A stretch of DNA of 64,000 nt, from NCBI GenBank assembly GCA_022826865.1, contig JAJDUC010000037.1:62001-126000 (forward strand). Reading direction: 5' to 3'. The notes beneath the pieces were generated by a model. It worked only from the letters and a program-made list of their open reading frames with translations, searched no databases and was not told where the DNA came from. The position numbers and the translations under genes were made by a program. Source of the DNA: Anaerolineae bacterium (lineage in GTDB: Bacteria; Chloroflexota; Anaerolineae; Aggregatilineales; Phototrophicaceae). Shown in pieces: positions 5,068 through 51,684 of the stretch (position 1 is the stretch's first letter; each line of letters opens with the position of its first letter).

Positions 5068-6396
5068 TTAGCTGTATTCTTCCCAGAATCCGTCCAGGAG
5101 AGCCTGAATTTCGGCTTCGGTGTCCGCAAGCGCCTGCTCAACGGTCTTGTCGCCGAAGAGCACATCGTCCACCATGCGGCCAATCATTTGATTGGCTTCC
5201 GGCTGCACCGGCGAGATGGGCGCCACAGCGTCGAGCGCCGCCACCCCAAGAATCGCCTCGGCCCGCGGATGGCTGACGCCATCTTTCAAGTAGCCGTCGC
5301 AAGCGGCAATCGGGGAGGGACGCTGCTGCTGCTGCAAGAACCAGCAGCCGCCAACACCCTCAACCTCGGTGGTCAACCAACTGACCAGTTGCCAGGCTTC
5401 ATCCGGATGCGCGGCGTTCTTCGGCACCATAAAGCCCCAGCCGCCCCAGGTCGCGCCGCGGCGGTCCGGGCTGCCATTCGGTCCGTACGGGACGGCGGCC
5501 ACTTCGTAATTCAGTTCTTCGGCATGCGATTCCAGTTGGAAGAGCGCCCAGGAGCCAGTTGACTGAATCGATACCAGATCCAGGATGATCGCCATCTGGT
5601 CGAATTCGCCAGCGGATTCCCAGAAGGCGTTCTGTTCTTCGATGCCGTAGTTGATTTCCGTCATCGCCTGCATGAACTCAAGCGTCTGCGCGCCGGCTTC
5701 GTTGTTGATCGTGACCGTGCGCAGGTCTTCGCTGATCCAATCCTGGCCGTTGGCGTTGAGCCAGGTGATGAACGCGGGCGCGCCCGACATCGCATTGGCG
5801 TTGAATCCGATCCGGTCGAGGAAATCGCCATCACCCTGCGTCAGCGCCTCGGCCGCTTCCAGCATCTCGTCCCAGGTCTCCGGGAAACTTTCAATGCCGG
5901 CCTCGGCGAAGTGATCGACGTTGTAAAACATGAGGTTCAGCGCGCCGCCGCTCGGATTCGGCAGCATCCAGGTCTGTCCGTTGTAGACATTGCCCACGAA
6001 CTCGGCCGGGATGAAGATGTCCGACGAGACGCCGTCGGCCGCCATGTAATCATCCAGCGGGATGATCTGCTCGGTCACGGCGAAGAAAGGCAGGTCCTGA
6101 CGTCCAAACATGGTGACATCGGGCGGGTTGCCGGCTGCGATCGCCGTCAGCAGGTTCTGCAAGCGATTATCCCAGGGCAGGAACAGGTTGTTAACGCAGA
6201 CACCGGGATGAGCGTCTTCAAAGGCTGCGACTACCGCTTCCATCAGCGGAATGCGATTGCCGCCCCAGTGATGCCAATAGGTCAGCGTCACATCGCCTTC
6301 GCAATCGGGGTTTTGCGCGGTCACTGTCGCCGACAGCGACACCAGCGACAATACGATGATAAAGATGGTCAAGAGAAGTTTCCGTCTCCCAAACAC
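5068..6396 (-). CDS. Extracellular solute-binding protein of sugar ABC importer
   Basis: 442 residues. It has a classical Sec signal peptide (RRKLLLTIFIIVLSLVSLSA, cleaved near TVTA-QN) without a lipobox Cys at the cleavage site, so it is either retained at the membrane by an unusual route or released. The mature part starts with VTLTYWHHWGG, the typical opening of MalE/UgpB-like family 1 binding proteins, and includes PFFAVTEQIIPLDDYM and WGGWGFMVPKNAAHPDEAW. The start is GTG at 6396 with an AAAGGAGA ribosome site. It is first in the operon and captures the substrate for the two permeases downstream. The substrate is a carbohydrate, likely sulfated, judging by the sulfatase neighbour. Confidence 0.93.
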   Translation of the reverse strand: MFGRRKLLLTIFIIVLSLVSLSATVTAQNPDCEGDVTLTYWHHWGGNRIPLMEAVVAAFEDAHPGVCVNNLFLPWDNRLQNLLTAIAAGNPPDVTMFGRQDLPFFAVTEQIIPLDDYMAADGVSSDIFIPAEFVGNVYNGQTWMLPNPSGGALNLMFYNVDHFAEAGIESFPETWDEMLEAAEALTQGDGDFLDRIGFNANAMSGAPAFITWLNANGQDWISEDLRTVTINNEAGAQTLEFMQAMTEINYGIEEQNAFWESAGEFDQMAIILDLVSIQSTGSWALFQLESHAEELNYEVAAVPYGPNGSPDRRGATWGGWGFMVPKNAAHPDEAWQLVSWLTTEVEGVGGCWFLQQQQRPSPIAACDGYLKDGVSHPRAEAILGVAALDAVAPISPVQPEANQMIGRMVDDVLFGDKTVEQALADTEAEIQALLDGFWEEYS

Positions 6397-6631
6397 GTGA
6401 ATCTCCTTTCAATAAGAGGCTGTGGACGAATCAAACGAAATCGATAGGGAAAATTACCCGGCGCCATCAGGCTGGTGAGACCGATGCTTGCGCCTTTGGC
6501 GACACCTTTTGCCTCCTTGCGCCCAGCTTATTTCAAGCCGGCTTCTGTTGCGGCCTTGCGCTCGCGGTTACTTGCGTCGCGGAAAAATTTTGCACATTTT
6601 AGACCGAAATTTTCAAAAATCAGCGCTTAAT

Positions 6632-6660
6632 ATAGTAAATTTTGTCAGGAGGCGCAACAA
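6632..6660 (-). promoter_or_regulatory. Candidate sigma-70 promoter for the binding-protein operon
   Basis: On the minus strand, TTGTTG (6660-6655) and TACTAT (6637-6632) are 17 bp apart. They sit inside an AT-rich island (about 6590-6660) that stands out from the GC-rich surroundings and holds short palindromic AAATTT tracts which could be operator sites. The leader to the GTG start is about 230 nt. The rest of the 6397-6735 gap shows no gene. Confidence 0.5.
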
Positions 6661-6735
6661 AGAATTGAGATTGACAGGCCCGCCGCCGGCGATCGTAGAA
6701 GCCGGGCCAAGCCGACCGCCCGCTATTTTTCGCCG

Positions 6736-37023: not shown

Positions 37024-38085
37024 TCAGTGACGGGTGCTGCCTCTTTCCGGTCCTGTCAGCAGCCGACGCAGGTTATTGTAGTCTTCCAGAACACGGCCGG
37101 CGCCGCGCGCCACACAGGTCATGGCATCGTCCGCCAACCAGGAACGAATATTGACTTCTTCGCGCAAGCGGTCCCCCAGGCCGCGCAATTGACCGGCGCC
37201 ACCCGCGATGGTAATCCCGCTCTCCATCAAGTCGGCGACCAATTCCGGCGGCGTATCGTCCAGCGCGTCTTTGACCGTATCGATGATGATATTCACGGAA
37301 CCCCCGATGGCTTCGCGAATCTCGATGGAGCTGACTTCGACCGAATCCGGCAAGCCGGTTGTCAAGTTCCTGCCTTTGACCATGTAGGTCCGCTCTTGCG
37401 GCAGCGGGTAAGCCGATCCGATATCAATTTTTGCCTTTTCCGCCGTTGGTTCGCCAATCAGCAAATTGTGTTTGTTGCGCAAGTGCTGCACGATATCTTC
37501 ATCCATTTCGTCGCCAGCCACGCGAATCGAACGACTGATGACGATGCCGCCGAGTGAAAAGAGCGCCACCTCCGTCGTGCCGCCGCCAATATCCACGACC
37601 ATGCTGCCGCGTGTTTCCAAGACGGGCAGGTTGGCGCCGATGGCAGCCGCCACCGGCTCTTCTATCAAGTGCGCTTCGCGCGCCCCCGCATCCAGCGTCG
37701 CCTCAATCACGGCGCGCTTTTCCACTTCCGTCACACCGCTTGGGATGCCAACGACAACGCGTGGGCGCGGAACCGGCACCCAACTTTGCTCATGCGCTTT
37801 CTTGATCAAGTAGTCGAGCATGCGGGCGGTGATTTCGTATTCGCTGATAACGCCGTCGCGCAATGGGCGGACGATTAGAATATCTTTGGGATTCTTGCTC
37901 CACATCTCTTTGGCGCGCGCGCCAACTTCAATCGGGGCGCGCGTCTTGCGGTCGATGGCGACAAACGAAGGTTCATTGATAACTATGCCCTTGCCGCGCA
38001 CGTAAACTAAGGTATATGCCGTACCAAGGTCGACACCGATGTCAAGCGAAAAAAGCCCGAACAGGAAATCCAGAGGGCTTAGCAC
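37024..38085 (-). CDS. mreB: Rod shape-determining actin homologue MreB
   Basis: 353 residues from the GTG at 38085, selected because GAGGAG lies 6 nt upstream and the length then matches the family (about 345). A longer ORF to 38220 would add 45 unrelated residues across the promoter. Actin-fold motifs: phosphate 1 IGVDLGTAYTLVYV, phosphate 2 MVVDIGGGTTEVALFS, adenosine ITIAGGAGQLRGLGDRL. It forms membrane filaments that guide the elongation machinery and heads the mreBCD-mrdA operon. Confidence 0.98.
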   Translation of the reverse strand: MLSPLDFLFGLFSLDIGVDLGTAYTLVYVRGKGIVINEPSFVAIDRKTRAPIEVGARAKEMWSKNPKDILIVRPLRDGVISEYEITARMLDYLIKKAHEQSWVPVPRPRVVVGIPSGVTEVEKRAVIEATLDAGAREAHLIEEPVAAAIGANLPVLETRGSMVVDIGGGTTEVALFSLGGIVISRSIRVAGDEMDEDIVQHLRNKHNLLIGEPTAEKAKIDIGSAYPLPQERTYMVKGRNLTTGLPDSVEVSSIEIREAIGGSVNIIIDTVKDALDDTPPELVADLMESGITIAGGAGQLRGLGDRLREEVNIRSWLADDAMTCVARGAGRVLEDYNNLRRLLTGPERGSTRH

Positions 38086-38118
38086 TGATGGCTCCTCGAC
38101 CTCATGCGTTCGCAGCGC

Positions 38119-38127
38119 ATTATAGCA
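38119..38127 (-). promoter_or_regulatory. Extended -10 promoter of mreB
   Basis: The minus strand reads TGC-TATAAT (38127-38119), an extended -10 with a perfect hexamer, 34 bp upstream of the GTG start. No strong -35 box is visible at the usual distance, as is common for extended -10 promoters. Confidence 0.65.
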
Positions 38128-38201
38128 TAGTTCGACATACTCGAATGCGAAGTAAGGCAAACGAATCACAAACTTCATTAACGTGCGTTTACACTCTGTT
38201 A

Positions 38202-39692
38202 ATGCATAGCGGCGATTCACGCGCGAGCCGCGCCGGGTTAAGATTAGGTCAGATTGATTGGCGTAGGGCAGACGGTGGTGTAACGTTGGGTGTACAGGAC
38301 GCGATTGCCGCGGCGCTCCGGAAGGAAGGCGCTCTGGGCGCCGGGCGCAAATTGATTGTGGCCGTCTCCGGCGGCTGCGATTCGGTGGTCTTGTTGCACG
38401 CCCTGATTCAATTGCGGGAGGGCCTTGGGCGCGCGCTGCATGTCGCGTCGCTTGATCATGGCCTTCGCGGCGAGGCCGGGCGGCGCGATGTCGAATTTGT
38501 TGGCGAGCTTGCCGAGCGCTGGTCCCTGCCTTGTACGCTGGGCGCCGCTGATGTACCCAGGTTCTCGCATGAGAGCAAAATTGGCATAGAGGAGGCGGCC
38601 CGCGGCGCCCGCTATGCTTTCCTGGCGGGGGTTGCGAACGAGCAGGGCAGCGATCGCGTCCTTGTCGGGCACCATGCCGACGACCAGGCGGAGACTATAG
38701 TCATGCGTATGACGCGCGGCACGGGCATTCGCGGCTTGGGCGGCATGCAAATTGTCTCGGCAATGCCCGATCATTCGCGTATCTTCTTGATTCGCCCGTT
38801 GCTGCAAGTGCAACGCGCCGAAATTGAGCGGTATTGCCGTCTTCATGATTTGCCATTTCGTCACGACGAGAGCAATGATGACAGATCTATCGCGCGCAAT
38901 TTTTTACGGCACGAGGTTATGGGCCGGCTGCGGCGCTCGAATCCGCAGATCGCGAAGGCGTTGATGCGCCTGGGCGATGCGGCGCGGGTGGACGATGACT
39001 TCATTGCTCGGCAGTTTGACGCGATTGTTATGCCCCATGCGCGCATCTCCTCCGCATGTTGGCGAATTTCAAAGGCGGACTTCCTGGCGCTGCATCCGGC
39101 GCTGCAGCGGCGCTTCCTGCATCGGGCGTTCCAAGCGCTGGCGGACCAACCGGCATTCTTGTCTCAGGCATTGACGCTGGAGCTGGTCGCCTGGCTGCAC
39201 GACGCCGCCAGCGGCAAGCGAATGGATATGGGCGCGGCGCTCCAACTCCAAATTTGCTACGGCGCCCTTTGCGTTTCGCGCAAAGATCAGCGCCCGGCGG
39301 CAGCCGCTTACCGCCTGATTCCCGCAGGCGCCGATATCGAGATCGACCGTGAGACGCCCCTGATTTTGAACGACATTTCCATCCAGATGGCGTCGGACGC
39401 GCAGGCGGGGCAGGCCGGCGCAGCGCTGCGTCTGCCGGAGGCGGTAGTCTTGCGCTTGCGCACGCGCCGCCAAGGCGACCGATTTAAGCCGAAGGGCATG
39501 GCCGGCCATTCGCGCAAACTCAAAGACTGGATGATCGACCGCAAGATTCCGCGAGACATTCGCGACGGGATACCCTTGCTCTGCGCCAACGGCGCGATTG
39601 TAGCGATCTGCCTCGGCGACGTTTGGCACCGCGCGGACATCAGCCAGTTTGATGCTCAACAGGGCGCATGTTTGTCGTGGATCCTGCAGTAA
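38202..39692 (+). CDS. tilS: tRNA(Ile)-lysidine synthetase
   Basis: About 496 residues. The PP-loop ATPase motif SGGCDSVVLLHAL is followed by HVASLDHGLRGEAGRRD, GHHADDQAETIVMRMTRGTG and FLRHEVMGRLRRSNP. The C-terminal TilS domain has RTRRQGDRFKPKGMAGHSRKLKDWM. The enzyme attaches lysine to C34 of the CAU anticodon to make tRNA-Ile2 read AUA. The ATG at 38202 is a best guess without a clear ribosome site; a TTG at 38294 is an alternative. It is divergent from mreB. Confidence 0.95.
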   Translation: MHSGDSRASRAGLRLGQIDWRRADGGVTLGVQDAIAAALRKEGALGAGRKLIVAVSGGCDSVVLLHALIQLREGLGRALHVASLDHGLRGEAGRRDVEFVGELAERWSLPCTLGAADVPRFSHESKIGIEEAARGARYAFLAGVANEQGSDRVLVGHHADDQAETIVMRMTRGTGIRGLGGMQIVSAMPDHSRIFLIRPLLQVQRAEIERYCRLHDLPFRHDESNDDRSIARNFLRHEVMGRLRRSNPQIAKALMRLGDAARVDDDFIARQFDAIVMPHARISSACWRISKADFLALHPALQRRFLHRAFQALADQPAFLSQALTLELVAWLHDAASGKRMDMGAALQLQICYGALCVSRKDQRPAAAAYRLIPAGADIEIDRETPLILNDISIQMASDAQAGQAGAALRLPEAVVLRLRTRRQGDRFKPKGMAGHSRKLKDWMIDRKIPRDIRDGIPLLCANGAIVAICLGDVWHRADISQFDAQQGACLSWILQ

Positions 39693-39791
39693 TCGGCCAG
39701 TTCCAGGCAAATTCAAGCGCCGCCTGTAAATGCGATCGTCCAGCTTGCGCTATAATTATTTTGAATACCTTTCTCCGTCCTGGTGGCGAAG

Positions 39792-40634
39792 ATGGCAGAG
39801 ACTCAGTTGATGCGGCTCCTCCTTGTCGACGATGATGGCGTCAATCGATATACCGTAAGCAAAGCCTTGCAGCGCGCCGGATATGTGGTGACGGAGGCGG
39901 GAAACGGTGAATCGGCGCTGGAGCGCTACGCCGCGGGCGACTTCGACCTGGTCTTAAGCGAAATTGAATTGCCGGACATAGGCGGGATCGAGTTGCTGCA
40001 AGGGATTAAGAGCCAGTATTCCGATGCCATTGTGGTTTTGATGACGGAAGAGGCGAGCGTTGAAACGGCTGTTCAAGCTCTACGTTTCGGCGCCAATGAC
40101 TACCTCGTCAAGCCTTGTACCAGCGAAGACATCCGCGAAAGCGTTGAGCGTGGCATCGAGAGCGCGCGCAGCCTGCGCCGCCGCCGCCGTCTTCTGGACA
40201 CTATTGAGCGAACCGTCACCGACTTAACCCGCGAGGTCGCCGAAGCCGACGGCGGACGCGCCGCGGACGGAAGCGATCCTGTGCCGACGCCGCGCGAACG
40301 CCTGAGCCCGCGTGGAAATGCGATTAGTTTGGGCCCGCTGGCAGTCTTGCCCGGCAAGTACCAGATCGTCGCCGGCGAGAAATCGGTGAGCCTGACGCCG
40401 ACGGAATTTGATCTGCTGCTTTACCTGGCCGCCCATCGCGGACGCGTCGTTTCCTGCCATGAGCTTGTGCGCGAAGTGCGCGGATATATCACGGACGAAA
40501 CCGAAGCCCGTGAGGTCATACGCCCGCATGTGAGCAATTTACGGCGCAAACTAAAAGGTTTGGGCGATATCGAATTGATCGTCAACGTACGCGGAATCGG
40601 CTATCGGCTCGGCGAAATATCGGCGCCGGACTAG
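39792..40634 (+). CDS. Response regulator (REC plus OmpR-type winged helix) with Glu at the phospho-acceptor site
   Basis: 280 residues. The receiver domain (about 5-125) keeps the acidic pocket (LLLVDDDGVNRYTV), the switch Thr (VVLMTEEAS) and the Lys (YLVKPCTSED). The phosphorylation site reads DLVLSEIELPDIGG, so Glu (GAA codon) stands where Asp is expected. A basic linker (RRRRRLLD) leads to an OmpR/PhoB winged helix with SLTPTEFDLLLYLAAHRGRVVS and HVSNLRRKLKG...VRGIGYRL. It is a DNA-binding transcription regulator, perhaps constitutively active. A GTG at 39783 is an alternative start. TATAAT at 39751-39756 may be its -10. Confidence 0.93.
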   Translation: MAETQLMRLLLVDDDGVNRYTVSKALQRAGYVVTEAGNGESALERYAAGDFDLVLSEIELPDIGGIELLQGIKSQYSDAIVVLMTEEASVETAVQALRFGANDYLVKPCTSEDIRESVERGIESARSLRRRRRLLDTIERTVTDLTREVAEADGGRAADGSDPVPTPRERLSPRGNAISLGPLAVLPGKYQIVAGEKSVSLTPTEFDLLLYLAAHRGRVVSCHELVREVRGYITDETEAREVIRPHVSNLRRKLKGLGDIELIVNVRGIGYRLGEISAPD

Positions 40635-41092
40635 CGCGCCGCTTTCATTTCCGACTGTAATCGCACAGCGTTCGCGCGCCGCAATGCCTTGGCGCCTGAT
40701 TCCCGAGCGGGTTCGTTACCTGGCATTTTTGAGGATGGTTCTCGTCCGGGACCGCAAGCGGACGAAGATTTAGCGAAACTTTTACATTTTCACTCGTGGA
40801 CAAAAATGTTTGTCGTCGCTTTTCCGCCCGGATTCCCGCGCTGTGGCCGAGCTCCGCCGAGAATGCGGCTTGCGAGACAAGAGCCCGGACGCGCTATTTG
40901 ACAGTCCCGCCAACTCTAATGAAATTCATATACGGAGTGAACAACAATAAGTTGGATTTGCCGCCCAATCCTGCTTGCGCGCGGCGCTTTCCTGGCATTG
41001 CGCGCTATGCGAGGGGCCCGGTCCTAAGTTATAATGACCTTGCTCCGTATGCCGCTGAAACGAAGGCTTAAAACCGAGGACAGGTTCACTTG
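40635..41092. other. 458-bp gene-free region upstream of the Clp-like ATPase
   Basis: No convincing gene: the short reading frames lack codon bias and ribosome sites. A perfect TTGACA (40898-40903) has no good -10 partner at 16-18 bp. A perfect TATAAT (41030-41035), with start near 41042, is the best promoter candidate for the ATPase gene. Confidence 0.45.
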
Positions 41093-43342
41093 ATGTCTAC
41101 CCTGAATCCTGATCTGATCTCCAAAGATATGGATGCCATTTTGAACGATACGGCGCCGATGCTTAGCGAGTATCGCAAGTCATCGGTCATGCCGGAGATG
41201 GTATTGCTCGCCCTGCTGCGCCGTCAAAACACGGCCGCCTGGCGCATGCTGAAAATGTTTGAGTCGTCGCGCGGTGTCGACCTGGAGCGGCTGGAACGGC
41301 AAGTGCGGGTGGCGATTCAGTCGCGGCGCGATCCCGATGGCAGCCTGGATTTCGTGGCGATCGGCAACCGGAAGATTTCCTTGAGCCGGCAATCGATCAT
41401 CCTGCTGGATGACGGGCTGACGATTGCCAACTCCATGAACGAGCAAAAAATCGACACTGATCACGCTCTGGCCGTGCTGGCGGAGACGTCGGTCAGCACG
41501 GGCGGCATCCTGCGCCAATTCAGCATCACCCCGAAATCCATCCAGGATGCCTACAGCGACGCCAGCAAGATAATCCCGGCGCGCGAAGACAGCACAACCG
41601 TCGATTATGTCAAGCGCGCTAAACGTGGCTTGCTGCGCGCGGTGCATTTCCGCGAAGAGCTGCTGCGCAGCATGATCAACGTCCTGACGCAATCGGTCAA
41701 TCGCCATATCGTCCTGGTGGGACCCGACGGCGTGGGCAAGCGTACGCTGGCTTACAGTCTGGCGCTGCTGATGGCCGAGGAAAAGGGACCGGCCGGCCTT
41801 TCCAATTTGGTCCAGATCAGCGAAACGGCCTTGCTCGACGGCGACCAGGAAGCTTTTCGCGCCGGCATGAGCGCGGCCCGGCGCGGCGTGCTCTTCTTGC
41901 CGCTGATTCACCGCTTCTTCGGCGGGCCGATCAAAGCCGATTTCAACAAAGCGACTTCGCTGGTGCAAAAGGCATTCTTGAGCGACGACCCCGTGATCAT
42001 TTGCACCACCAGCTTGCAAGAATTCGAAGCGCGCATTCAAGGCGTCAGCGCCATTATGGAGAACAGCCAGGTCATCAAGGTCGATGAGCCGACACTCGAC
42101 GAAACGGTGCAGATTTTGGAAACCATCTCGCCGCATATTGAATCGGATTATGAGATTGCGGTCGATCATGACGCCTTGAAGATGGCGGCGCGCATGTCCC
42201 ATCGCTTTCTCAAGACCCATCCGCTCCCGCAAAGCGCCGAGCAATTGCTGCATCGCACCGCGGCGATGGTCAATATGGGCAAGCAGGCGCATCTCGCCTT
42301 TCGGCCGGAGAATAATGACGCCACGCTCGATGTCGAAGATGTGACCCTGGTCACCAGCCAAATGACGGGCATCCCGGTGGCGAAGCTCGGCGCCGATGAG
42401 CGTCTGCGTTACGCCAATATGGTCGAGCATCTGCGCGAGAGGCTGATCGGGCAGGAAGAGGCTGTGCAATTGGTGAGCCGCGCCATTAAGACCGCCCGCG
42501 TCGGCTTGAAAGATCCCCGGCGTCCCATCGGCACCTTTCTTTTCCTGGGCCCGACCGGCATCGGCAAAACCGAGCTAGCCAAAGTGCTGGCTGATTTTAT
42601 GTTCGGCAGCGAAGAGAATCTCTTCGTCCTGGACATGAGCGAATACAAAGACGAAAGCAGCATCAATCGCCTGATCGGTTCGGCAGTGGGATATGTCGGC
42701 AGCGACGAAGGCGGCCAACTGACCGAACGACTGATTCAAAAGCCCTATACCATTGTGCTCCTGGACGAGATTGAAAAAGCGCATCCGCGCATCATGGATG
42801 TCTTGCTGCAGGTGATGGAGGAGGGGCGGCTGACTGACGGACGCGGCAATGTCGCCGGCTTTAGCGAAGCCGTGGTCATCTTGACCAGCAATATCGGCTC
42901 GGAGCACCTCATGGTGCGTCAAATCACTGATGATCTGCGCGAGATGATTATGGACCAGGTGCTGGAATTCTTGCGCCCCGAATTCATCAATCGTCTTGAT
43001 GAGGTCATCTTGTTTAATGCCCTGGGCGATGATGATTTTGTGCTGATTCTCGATTTGCTGATCGAAAAAGAAAACAAGCTGGCGCGGGAACGCGGTTTAA
43101 CCTTGACCTTCACCGATGGCGCCAAGAAGTGGCTCCTCGAGCAAAATGACGAGCCGGAGTTTGGCGCGCGTCCGCTGCGGCGGATTTTGCGGCGCAACTT
43201 GCGTGAGCCGCTGGCCGATTTTCTGCTTCGCTCGAACCCGCCCGAAGGCACTGAAGTTCGCGTCAGCTCCAGCCGCAGGCGCGGCGGCGGGCTCAAATTC
43301 TCCGCGCAGGTCGAAGGCGAAGAATTTGTGGTCGAGGCTTGA
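41093..43342 (+). CDS. ClpA/ClpB-type double AAA+ ATPase with degenerate first ATPase domain
   Basis: 749 residues. It has an N-terminal Clp_N-like repeat domain (1-150) and two AAA+ domains. D1 (about 190-420) is decayed: Walker A is GPDGVGKRT, with Arg where Ser/Thr should follow Lys; the Walker B site is VLFLPLIHRFFGG, lacking Asp-Glu; and the arginine-finger region reads IMENSQVIKVDEPT. D2 is intact: GPTGIGKTE, IVLLDEIEKAH, ILTSNIGS and RPEFINRLDE. There is no coiled-coil M domain, and the loop between sensor 1 and RPEF is short without an IGF/LGF tripeptide, so ClpP docking is unlikely. It probably acts as an unfoldase or disaggregase using D2 only. The start is ATG 41093; a TTG lies directly before it. 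Confidence 0.9.
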   Translation: MSTLNPDLISKDMDAILNDTAPMLSEYRKSSVMPEMVLLALLRRQNTAAWRMLKMFESSRGVDLERLERQVRVAIQSRRDPDGSLDFVAIGNRKISLSRQSIILLDDGLTIANSMNEQKIDTDHALAVLAETSVSTGGILRQFSITPKSIQDAYSDASKIIPAREDSTTVDYVKRAKRGLLRAVHFREELLRSMINVLTQSVNRHIVLVGPDGVGKRTLAYSLALLMAEEKGPAGLSNLVQISETALLDGDQEAFRAGMSAARRGVLFLPLIHRFFGGPIKADFNKATSLVQKAFLSDDPVIICTTSLQEFEARIQGVSAIMENSQVIKVDEPTLDETVQILETISPHIESDYEIAVDHDALKMAARMSHRFLKTHPLPQSAEQLLHRTAAMVNMGKQAHLAFRPENNDATLDVEDVTLVTSQMTGIPVAKLGADERLRYANMVEHLRERLIGQEEAVQLVSRAIKTARVGLKDPRRPIGTFLFLGPTGIGKTELAKVLADFMFGSEENLFVLDMSEYKDESSINRLIGSAVGYVGSDEGGQLTERLIQKPYTIVLLDEIEKAHPRIMDVLLQVMEEGRLTDGRGNVAGFSEAVVILTSNIGSEHLMVRQITDDLREMIMDQVLEFLRPEFINRLDEVILFNALGDDDFVLILDLLIEKENKLARERGLTLTFTDGAKKWLLEQNDEPEFGARPLRRILRRNLREPLADFLLRSNPPEGTEVRVSSSRRRGGGLKFSAQVEGEEFVVEA

Positions 43343-50106: not shown

Positions 50107-51684
50107 TCAATCGCGGGGGATCGTGAAAAAAAAGGTCGAGCCGGCGCCGGGTTGGCTCTTGACGGAGATTTCCCCCCCATGTTCTTCAACGATTGCTTTA
50201 GCCAGAAATAAGCCGAGTCCGGTTCCCTGGGCCCGCTGCGTGAGCTTGTCGTCGATGCGGTAAAAGCGCTCGAAAATCTTGTCGATCTGATCTTTGGCGA
50301 TGCCCGCGCCTTCGTCGCGCACAAAAACCGTCACGTGTTTTTCGCTGAAGCGCCCGCCGACCGTGATAGTTTTCTCGTCCGGCGAATATTTGATGGCGTT
50401 CGTGAGCAGGTTGTCGATCACCTGGCGCAGGCGCGCCGCATCTCCCTGGATCACCGGGAAGTTCTCGGGGAAACTCAACTCAATGCGATGGACCGATTGG
50501 CTCCGCAGTCGGGCGACTGAACGCGCCGCCACCGCGCTCAAGTCCGTATCGGCCGGGTTTAGCCGCAATTCCCGCGCCGCCTGGATTTTGCTGGCGGTTA
50601 ACAGGTCCTCCACCAAAGCAGTCAAGCGATCGGCCTCGTCTTCGATGATCGTCATCTTCTCCCGCACAACATCGCTCTCCCATTCGACATCGTCGCGGCC
50701 CAAGGTGCTTGCATAGCCTTTGATGATGGCGATAGGCGTGCGCAATTCATGATGAACCGAGGAGATGAAAACCGACTGCATCTCTTGGGCTTTGCGGAAA
50801 TTCGTGATGTCGCGGACGTTGGCGATGATGCTCTCCAGCTGGTCATCTTCCGCGAAAAGCGGGGCGTAGGTTATGCCGATGCTCAGGGTCATGCCGTCGC
50901 GCCGAACGAGATCGCCCTCGACATAATGCGTCGTTGCGCCCGGTTCCGTCTCATTTGCCCCGGCCCAGCCCGCTTCCAGCGCCGCTTCTATATCCTGGCC
51001 CGGCGCATGATCCCAGACGATGACATCGGCCACTGGCATATCGACAACGTCGTACTTGCTCCAACCGGTCATGCGTTCAAATGCGAGATTGGCTTGCTGA
51101 AACCTGAGATTCGGATTGAGGATGAAGACGCCGTCGCCGCTGCTGTTGACGATGGCTTCCAGGCGCTGATGTTCCTTATTGAGTTCGCCATAAAGCTGCG
51201 CATTGTTGACCGCTATCGCGGCTTGATCGGCAAAGCTTTGCAGAGTGTTCAGGTCTTCCGATGTGATAGCGGTTTGATAAGAGCGAAACACAATCAATAA
51301 GCCGAGCGGATTGCGCGCGAAGACCAGCGGCATGGCGATCGATTGGACCAGGCGCGGGTCGACGGCGTCGGCCATCTCCCGCAGCTTTTGGTTGAGAAAT
51401 TCGCGACTGATACCGCCTTCGTCGGCCGGGGCCATCAACTCCTGCAGTTTGATGTTCAGTTGCGGCACATCTTCCTGGCTGAGGCCGCTGTAGGCCCGCA
51501 CGTTGTATTTGCCATCGCGCTTGTCATTGAGCGCGACTATCCCAACGCGCCCGGCCAGCATCACCAGCGAGGCATGCAATACACGGCGCAAGACTTCGCC
51601 AAGATCGAGCTGGGCCGTGATCGCACGGGTGATTTCCAGCATGAAGTCGCGCTGTTGCGTGCGCAGATCTGGCCGCATTAACAT
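50107..51684 (-). CDS. Sensor histidine kinase (GAF-PAS-HisKA-HATPase)
   Basis: 525 residues with no membrane segment, so cytoplasmic. A GAF domain (about 20-165, LRRVLHASLVMLAGRVGIVAL) is followed by a PAS domain (about 180-290, IVNSSGDGVFILNPNLRFQQAN). The H-box is VHHELRTPIAIIKGYAS with the phospho-His. In the ATPase domain the N-box is NLLTNAIKYSPDEK, G1 is DEGAGIAKDQI, F is FERFYRID and G2 is GTGLGLFLAKAIVEEHGG. It autophosphorylates and signals to a response regulator; none is adjacent. It follows the ROK gene by 67 bp on the same strand. Confidence 0.95.
   Translation of the reverse strand: MLMRPDLRTQQRDFMLEITRAITAQLDLGEVLRRVLHASLVMLAGRVGIVALNDKRDGKYNVRAYSGLSQEDVPQLNIKLQELMAPADEGGISREFLNQKLREMADAVDPRLVQSIAMPLVFARNPLGLLIVFRSYQTAITSEDLNTLQSFADQAAIAVNNAQLYGELNKEHQRLEAIVNSSGDGVFILNPNLRFQQANLAFERMTGWSKYDVVDMPVADVIVWDHAPGQDIEAALEAGWAGANETEPGATTHYVEGDLVRRDGMTLSIGITYAPLFAEDDQLESIIANVRDITNFRKAQEMQSVFISSVHHELRTPIAIIKGYASTLGRDDVEWESDVVREKMTIIEDEADRLTALVEDLLTASKIQAARELRLNPADTDLSAVAARSVARLRSQSVHRIELSFPENFPVIQGDAARLRQVIDNLLTNAIKYSPDEKTITVGGRFSEKHVTVFVRDEGAGIAKDQIDKIFERFYRIDDKLTQRAQGTGLGLFLAKAIVEEHGGEISVKSQPGAGSTFFFTIPRD

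Follow-up and report, generated by a model that had tools for sequence, protein, structure and literature searches.

The window, which is the whole stretch of 64,000 nucleotides that was analysed, contains an open reading frame of 280 amino acids at 39792-40634 on the forward strand. From an alternative GTG start at 39783 the protein has 283 residues. Two Pfam families match it above their curated cut-offs, Response_reg with 94 bits and Trans_reg_C with 67 bits. The gene, the sites within it and its neighbours are as follows.

38016-39692, forward strand: TilS-like gene, the conserved upstream neighbour, named from sequence; the true start is probably later
39792-40634, forward strand: OmpR-type regulator with pseudo-receiver, long alpha5 helix and linker, and winged-helix DNA-binding domain (open reading frame, Pfam, AlphaFold model)
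39819-40145, forward strand: receiver domain PF00072 (Pfam)
39828-39833, forward strand: codons of the acidic pocket, Asp13-Asp14, kept in the window protein (sequence)
39960-39962, forward strand: Glu57 (GAA), the phospho-acceptor position (sequence, alignment)
39966-39968, forward strand: Glu59 at D+2 (alignment)
40044-40052, forward strand: Thr85, then Glu86-Glu87 at T+1 and T+2 (sequence, alignment)
40110-40118, forward strand: Lys107-Pro108-Cys109 (sequence, alignment)
40122-40247, forward strand: single long helix, residues 111-152, made of alpha5 and an extension and possibly a coiled coil (AlphaFold model)
40380-40610, forward strand: Trans_reg_C winged-helix DNA-binding domain PF00486 (Pfam)
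41090-43342, forward strand: Clp/AAA-type ATPase gene, the conserved downstream neighbour (Pfam)
50107-51684, reverse strand: nearest histidine kinase, GAF-PAS-HisKA-HATPase_c, an orphan (Pfam)

The motif DLVLSEIELPDIGG puts Glu57 (numbering of protein P0001) in the column of the phospho-accepting aspartate. An AlphaFold2 model was built from an alignment of 20 sequences and has a mean pLDDT of 82, with the receiver blocks mostly at 87-95. The (beta-alpha)5 receiver fold is fully intact in this model, and residue 57 ends strand beta3 (residues 53-57), matching canonical receivers. The receiver leads into an alpha5 helix of 42 residues (111-152) and then a winged helix; the stretch between these two, at about 156-175, has low confidence. 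Whole-length fold matches are OmpR/PhoB regulators, among them the atypical RitR and HP1043 structures (2hqr, 5u8m, 5u8k, 5vfa). The Pfam matches, the motif column and the modelled position of residue 57 together confirm what the original prediction had proposed, an OmpR-type regulator with glutamate (GAA) at the phospho-aspartate position.

Set beside canonical OmpR/PhoB regulators, the window protein has both domains, PF00072 and PF00486. It also has the acidic pair, the threonine and the lysine (Asp13, Asp14, Thr85 and Lys107, together with Tyr104), a set that is not conserved across its clade. The aspartate at the end of beta3 is replaced by Glu57. A pseudo-receiver is defined as a domain that is recognised as PF00072 and lacks at least one of five active-site residues (PMC12632262). 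The window protein is recognised as PF00072 and lacks the aspartate. By this definition it is therefore a pseudo-receiver, or aspartate-less receiver, of the OmpR type. It also has two changes that typically go with this state, a T+1 residue that is no longer Gly or Ala and an altered D+2 residue; both are glutamate here.

The regulator lies in a conserved neighbourhood. The gene order mreC-mreB / tilS-regulator-(esterase-PGA_cap)-(GH3)-clp-PMM is kept through much of the family and in part of the order; farther away within the order, families have other genes beside the regulator. The names TilS, MreB and MreC were given from sequence. Pfam confirmed the identity of three other neighbours, the ClpC-like ATPase, the glycoside hydrolase and the esterase/PGA_cap protein. 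Downstream of the regulator, the canonical loci examined carry a CapA-like esterase/PGA_cap protein, a glycoside hydrolase family 3 enzyme, or both, and then the Clp-type ATPase. The esterase-PGA_cap gene, which follows the regulator in most members of the clade (for instance at L039:6905-9046), is absent from 40635-41089 in the window, and genome G024 (L040) has only a weak partial match to it. The GH3 gene is limited to deeper branches of the clade and to outgroups.

No kinase gene adjoins the regulator, as the original prediction correctly stated; the nearest one in the window is the soluble kinase at 50107-51684, 9.5 kb away. As an argument this absence carries no weight, because no adjoining kinase was present in the canonical loci examined either. 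Since orthologues with the canonical aspartate are also without one, the orphan status is ancestral and older than the glutamate. Recent loss of a neighbouring kinase is ruled out as a cause on the same ground.

The orphan kinase has a single best match in 60 of the 61 genomes searched, and its HisKA histidine and ATP-binding boxes are intact in all 30 clade copies checked. It is also present in genomes G034, G037 and G060, where no regulator orthologue was found, and it is thus not an obligate partner of the regulator. The proposal of an obligate pair is likewise unsupported by the 30 intact copies, which persist though the regulator has lost its aspartate. In the window's genome no receiver gene lies beside this kinase; in G045 there is a receiver gene about 2 kb from the corresponding copy.

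The regulator is a single-copy orthologue, present in 34/34 genomes examined in the genus and in 97/98 in the family. The clade considered here consists of the 33 species-level genomes of the genus other than G033, and all 33 have the orthologue, which lies in the conserved neighbourhood in every case where the contig is long enough to tell. G033 is the sister genome, kinase-rich and 8.5 Mb in size, and its copy is canonical. The canonical set comprises 79 distinct orthologues from outside the clade that share 50% identity or more with the copy in G033. The complete D-D-D-T-K set is found in 77 of them; L106 has asparagine at the second acidic position, and the lysine column of L218 is missing in the alignment.

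Whether the glutamate is fixed in the clade, a point raised by the original prediction, has a divided answer. It is carried by 26 of the 33 members, while the other seven have aspartate, as do all 79 canonical orthologues. A sequencing error or a recent mutation, which had been named as a possible refutation, is ruled out as its source by the same glutamate in 25 further species.

The remainder of the site has changed as well. The original prediction described a single substitution in a site whose other conserved residues were kept, and this is true of Asp13, Asp14, Thr85 and Lys107 in the window protein, but not of the clade. Among the 26 proteins with glutamate, the second acidic-pocket aspartate (the Asp14 position) is gone in 18 and the switch threonine in four; the first pocket aspartate and the lysine are retained in all 26. 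The second residue of the acidic pair contacts the metal directly. Across the 33 clade members, this second pocket position is histidine in ten.

Three further positions contradict the single-substitution picture. Position D+2 is Arg or Lys in 77/79 canonical orthologues and Asp or Glu in 28/33 clade members (Glu59 in the window protein). T+1 is Gly or Ala in 79/79 canonical orthologues and Glu or Asp in 25/33 clade members (Glu86), and T+2 is Tyr or Phe in 79/79 and polar or acidic in most of the clade (Glu87). A small residue at T+1 generally gives access to the phosphorylation site (PMC12632262). Position K+2, at 40116-40118 in the window, is cysteine in 23/33 clade members against 4/79 canonical orthologues; PMC12632262 singles this position out as important in pseudo-receivers.

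The seven clade members with aspartate fall into two sets. Five of them (L098 in G003, L101 in G007, L108 in G014, L113 in G027 and L243 in G030) have Val-Ala at the acidic pair, serine for the threonine and methionine for the lysine. The other two, G005 and G023, have serine in place of threonine and glutamate at T+1. Only G023 among the seven has a formally complete site, with aspartate, serine at the threonine position and lysine. In one more copy in the clade, that of G020 (L117:452-1326), the coding sequence is divided between two frames, with the break close to where the DNA-binding domain begins, through either an assembly error or a real frameshift.

The order of these changes can be read from a tree that was built on four genes of the neighbourhood, MreC, MreB, TilS and ClpC, and from which the regulator itself was left out. 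The minimum number of changes on this tree is three in the phospho-aspartate column, nine in the acidic pair, five at the threonine and one at the lysine. G005 and G023 are nested among species with glutamate with full support (100/100), so that in these two glutamate went back to aspartate, and a single origin of glutamate without any return is ruled out for them. The return occurred at least once and possibly twice, each time with Thr changed to Ser and the rest of the site unrestored. For the Val-Ala/Met subclade such a return is uncertain, since a tree that unites all other clade members, in which the aspartate was retained and not regained, is not rejected (p-AU 0.12).

Selection on the domains was estimated from close pairs within the clade. 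The ratio dN/dS is 0.08-0.18 for the receiver and 0.04-0.26 for the DNA-binding domain. The receiver is thus maintained under purifying selection, and decay of the gene into a pseudogene is ruled out by these ratios. Mean protein distance in the receiver is 0.34 in the clade against 0.21 in the canonical groups. The DNA-binding domain is faster in the clade too (0.23 against 0.16), so the ratio of receiver to DNA-binding-domain distance is alike, at 1.47 in the clade and 1.36 in the canonical groups. The receiver does not drift freely; it has been retained for some role that is not phosphotransfer.

The clade is poor in two-component systems. Its genomes have 4-12 HisKA kinases and 6-19 receivers, against at least 29 and at least 49 in relatives rich in such systems; the sister genome G033, with its canonical regulator, has 82 HisKA kinases. 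Outside the clade, kinase-poor lineages of the family vary. In the genome G236 (2.6 Mb, 7 HisKA) the copy at this mreB-tilS-clp locus (L187, about 6001-6681) has degenerated independently, with a Glu-Lys pair, Asp, Ala for Thr, and Lys. In G034, also kinase-poor (3.2 Mb, 12 HisKA), no orthologue was found, the only such case among the 98 genomes of the family; as the assembly is fragmented, at about 500 contigs, the gene may have been missed. The kinase-poor genus g28 (G269, G386 and G387; 5-7 HisKA) has fully canonical copies, however. Kinase loss thus accompanies degeneration of the receiver without being enough to force it. Nor is loss of the aspartate general in the window's genome, since seven other receivers read there have all kept it.

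The habitat of the clade is suggested by its matching public contigs, which have names such as RHO1_bin_14, COS4_bin_41 and COS2_bin_22. The codes presumably stand for Rhopaloeides odorabile and Coscinoderma matthewsi, two sponges sampled in PMC8163846; the codes themselves do not appear in the text of that paper. This clade of Chloroflexota is probably sponge-associated.

The reading that best accounts for these observations is that of an aspartate-less OmpR/PhoB-type regulator which probably works without phosphorylation. It would have descended vertically from a canonical regulator that was already without a kinase of its own. The phospho-aspartate would have become glutamate, and the surrounding residues acidic or polar, on the branch to the clade, whose two-component kinases were for the most part lost as well. 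Judging from the residues, phosphotransfer by way of aspartate and Mg2+ would no longer control the protein. The receiver is still under selection, probably because it folds into a dimerisation module that keeps the DNA-binding domains together by way of the long alpha5 helix. In that case the regulator would bind DNA at its target genes without phosphorylation, and its activity might depend not on a kinase but on how strongly it is expressed or on a ligand or partner.

The original prediction had offered a locked-on or a kinase-independent regulator. Kinase-independence is well supported by the missing aspartate, the acidic T+1 residue and the repeated loss of a metal-binding acid in sister species. 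Some residual acid-pocket chemistry may nevertheless persist, as Asp13, Asp14, Thr85 and Lys107 are intact in the window protein and the site of G023 is formally complete. The locked state, the chief competing reading, is less well placed. In such a state Glu57 would mimic phospho-aspartate through Thr85 and Lys107 and hold the receiver active, and constitutive activity would be due to the glutamate. Glutamate does act as a phospho-mimic in NtrC and some other regulators, and it is the commonest substitution in aspartate-less receivers, at 26% (PMC4395418, PMC12632262). Lysine is kept in 26/26 clade proteins with glutamate, which would fit a functional Glu-Lys contact, and threonine in 22/26; the only subclade without the lysine has aspartate, not glutamate. 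Yet the glutamate is dispensable in the clade, having gone back to aspartate at least once (G005/G023) with the rest of the site unrestored. The switch threonine is required to read a phospho-mimic, and four of the 26 species with glutamate are without it. Several pocket positions (T+1, T+2 and D+2) have changed together with the glutamate. In other regulators a change from Asp to Glu by itself often fails to activate. The natural glutamate of ChxR is not the source of its activity: DNA binding was not abolished when this residue was changed to aspartate or alanine (PMC4395418). All this weakens the case for a phospho-mimic, and a receiver locked on by Glu57 is unlikely.

Purifying selection on the receiver would also suit an input other than phosphate, such as binding of a metal or small ligand by the acidic pocket, redox chemistry at Cys109, or contact with the orphan kinase without phosphotransfer. 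The pocket has gained acidic residues, with histidine at its second position in 10/33 members and cysteine at K+2 in most of the clade, and the orphan kinase is intact and present throughout. However, the pocket residues differ between species, which is unlike one conserved binding site, and the kinase also occurs in genomes that yielded no orthologue of the regulator. Such an input is very improbable. The same holds for a more specific form, in which the former phosphorylation pocket would have been rebuilt as an acidic sensor or contact site from Glu57, Glu59, Glu86 and Glu87 with Asp13/Asp14 or His14; if this long shot were true, the regulator would have come to sense a cation or other ligand directly, in place of kinase input, as most two-component kinases were given up. 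It is scarcely credible that the receiver is simply drifting after kinase loss in a protein on its way out. The degenerate pocket residues, the frameshift-split copy of G020 and the orthologue not found in kinase-poor G034 might suggest this, but dN/dS is far below 1 in both domains and the gene is present in 33/33 clade genomes.

Aspartate-less regulators of the OmpR type are a known kind, with 609 in a survey from 2015 (PMC4395418); the novelty lies in this orthologue group and in a sequence of states that is resolved across one clade. The origin of pseudo-receivers and the way they are switched on and off are described as largely unknown by PMC12632262. With single-copy orthologues, a conserved neighbourhood and a collapsed kinase repertoire, the clade provides an unusually complete series of stages in the loss of a phosphorylation site. 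These run from the canonical site, to glutamate with an acidified pocket, to loss of a metal-binding aspartate or the threonine, to aspartate again in a site that is still changed. The glutamate itself may be either a phospho-mimic during escape from kinase control or a neutral by-product.

The regulator shares much with the OmpR/PhoB-type aspartate-less receivers described in PMC4395418 and PMC12632262: a PF00072 domain without the phospho-aspartate, glutamate as the commonest replacement, an OmpR-type output, an orphan gene, frequent loss of the second acidic-pair residue and a T+1 residue that is less often small. None of the characterised members belongs to the Chloroflexota orthologue group, however, and here one Chloroflexota clade shows a passage from the canonical state to glutamate and to aspartate again with loss of lysine. 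A literature search found no paper that describes such a regulator from reduced symbionts.

ChxR of Chlamydia trachomatis is also an OmpR/PhoB-type regulator of a host-associated bacterium with glutamate at this position, and is phosphorylation-independent (PMC4395418, PMC3960148). It is a remote protein, and it shares neither the long linker and alpha5 helix of the Chloroflexota regulator nor its tilS-clp neighbourhood. HP1043/HsrA of Helicobacter and RitR of Streptococcus are orphan OmpR-type regulators with a degenerate receiver as well, and HP1043 and RitR are phosphorylation-independent. Their aspartate is replaced by other residues, for instance asparagine in RitR, which in a further difference is redox-controlled through a cysteine (C128).
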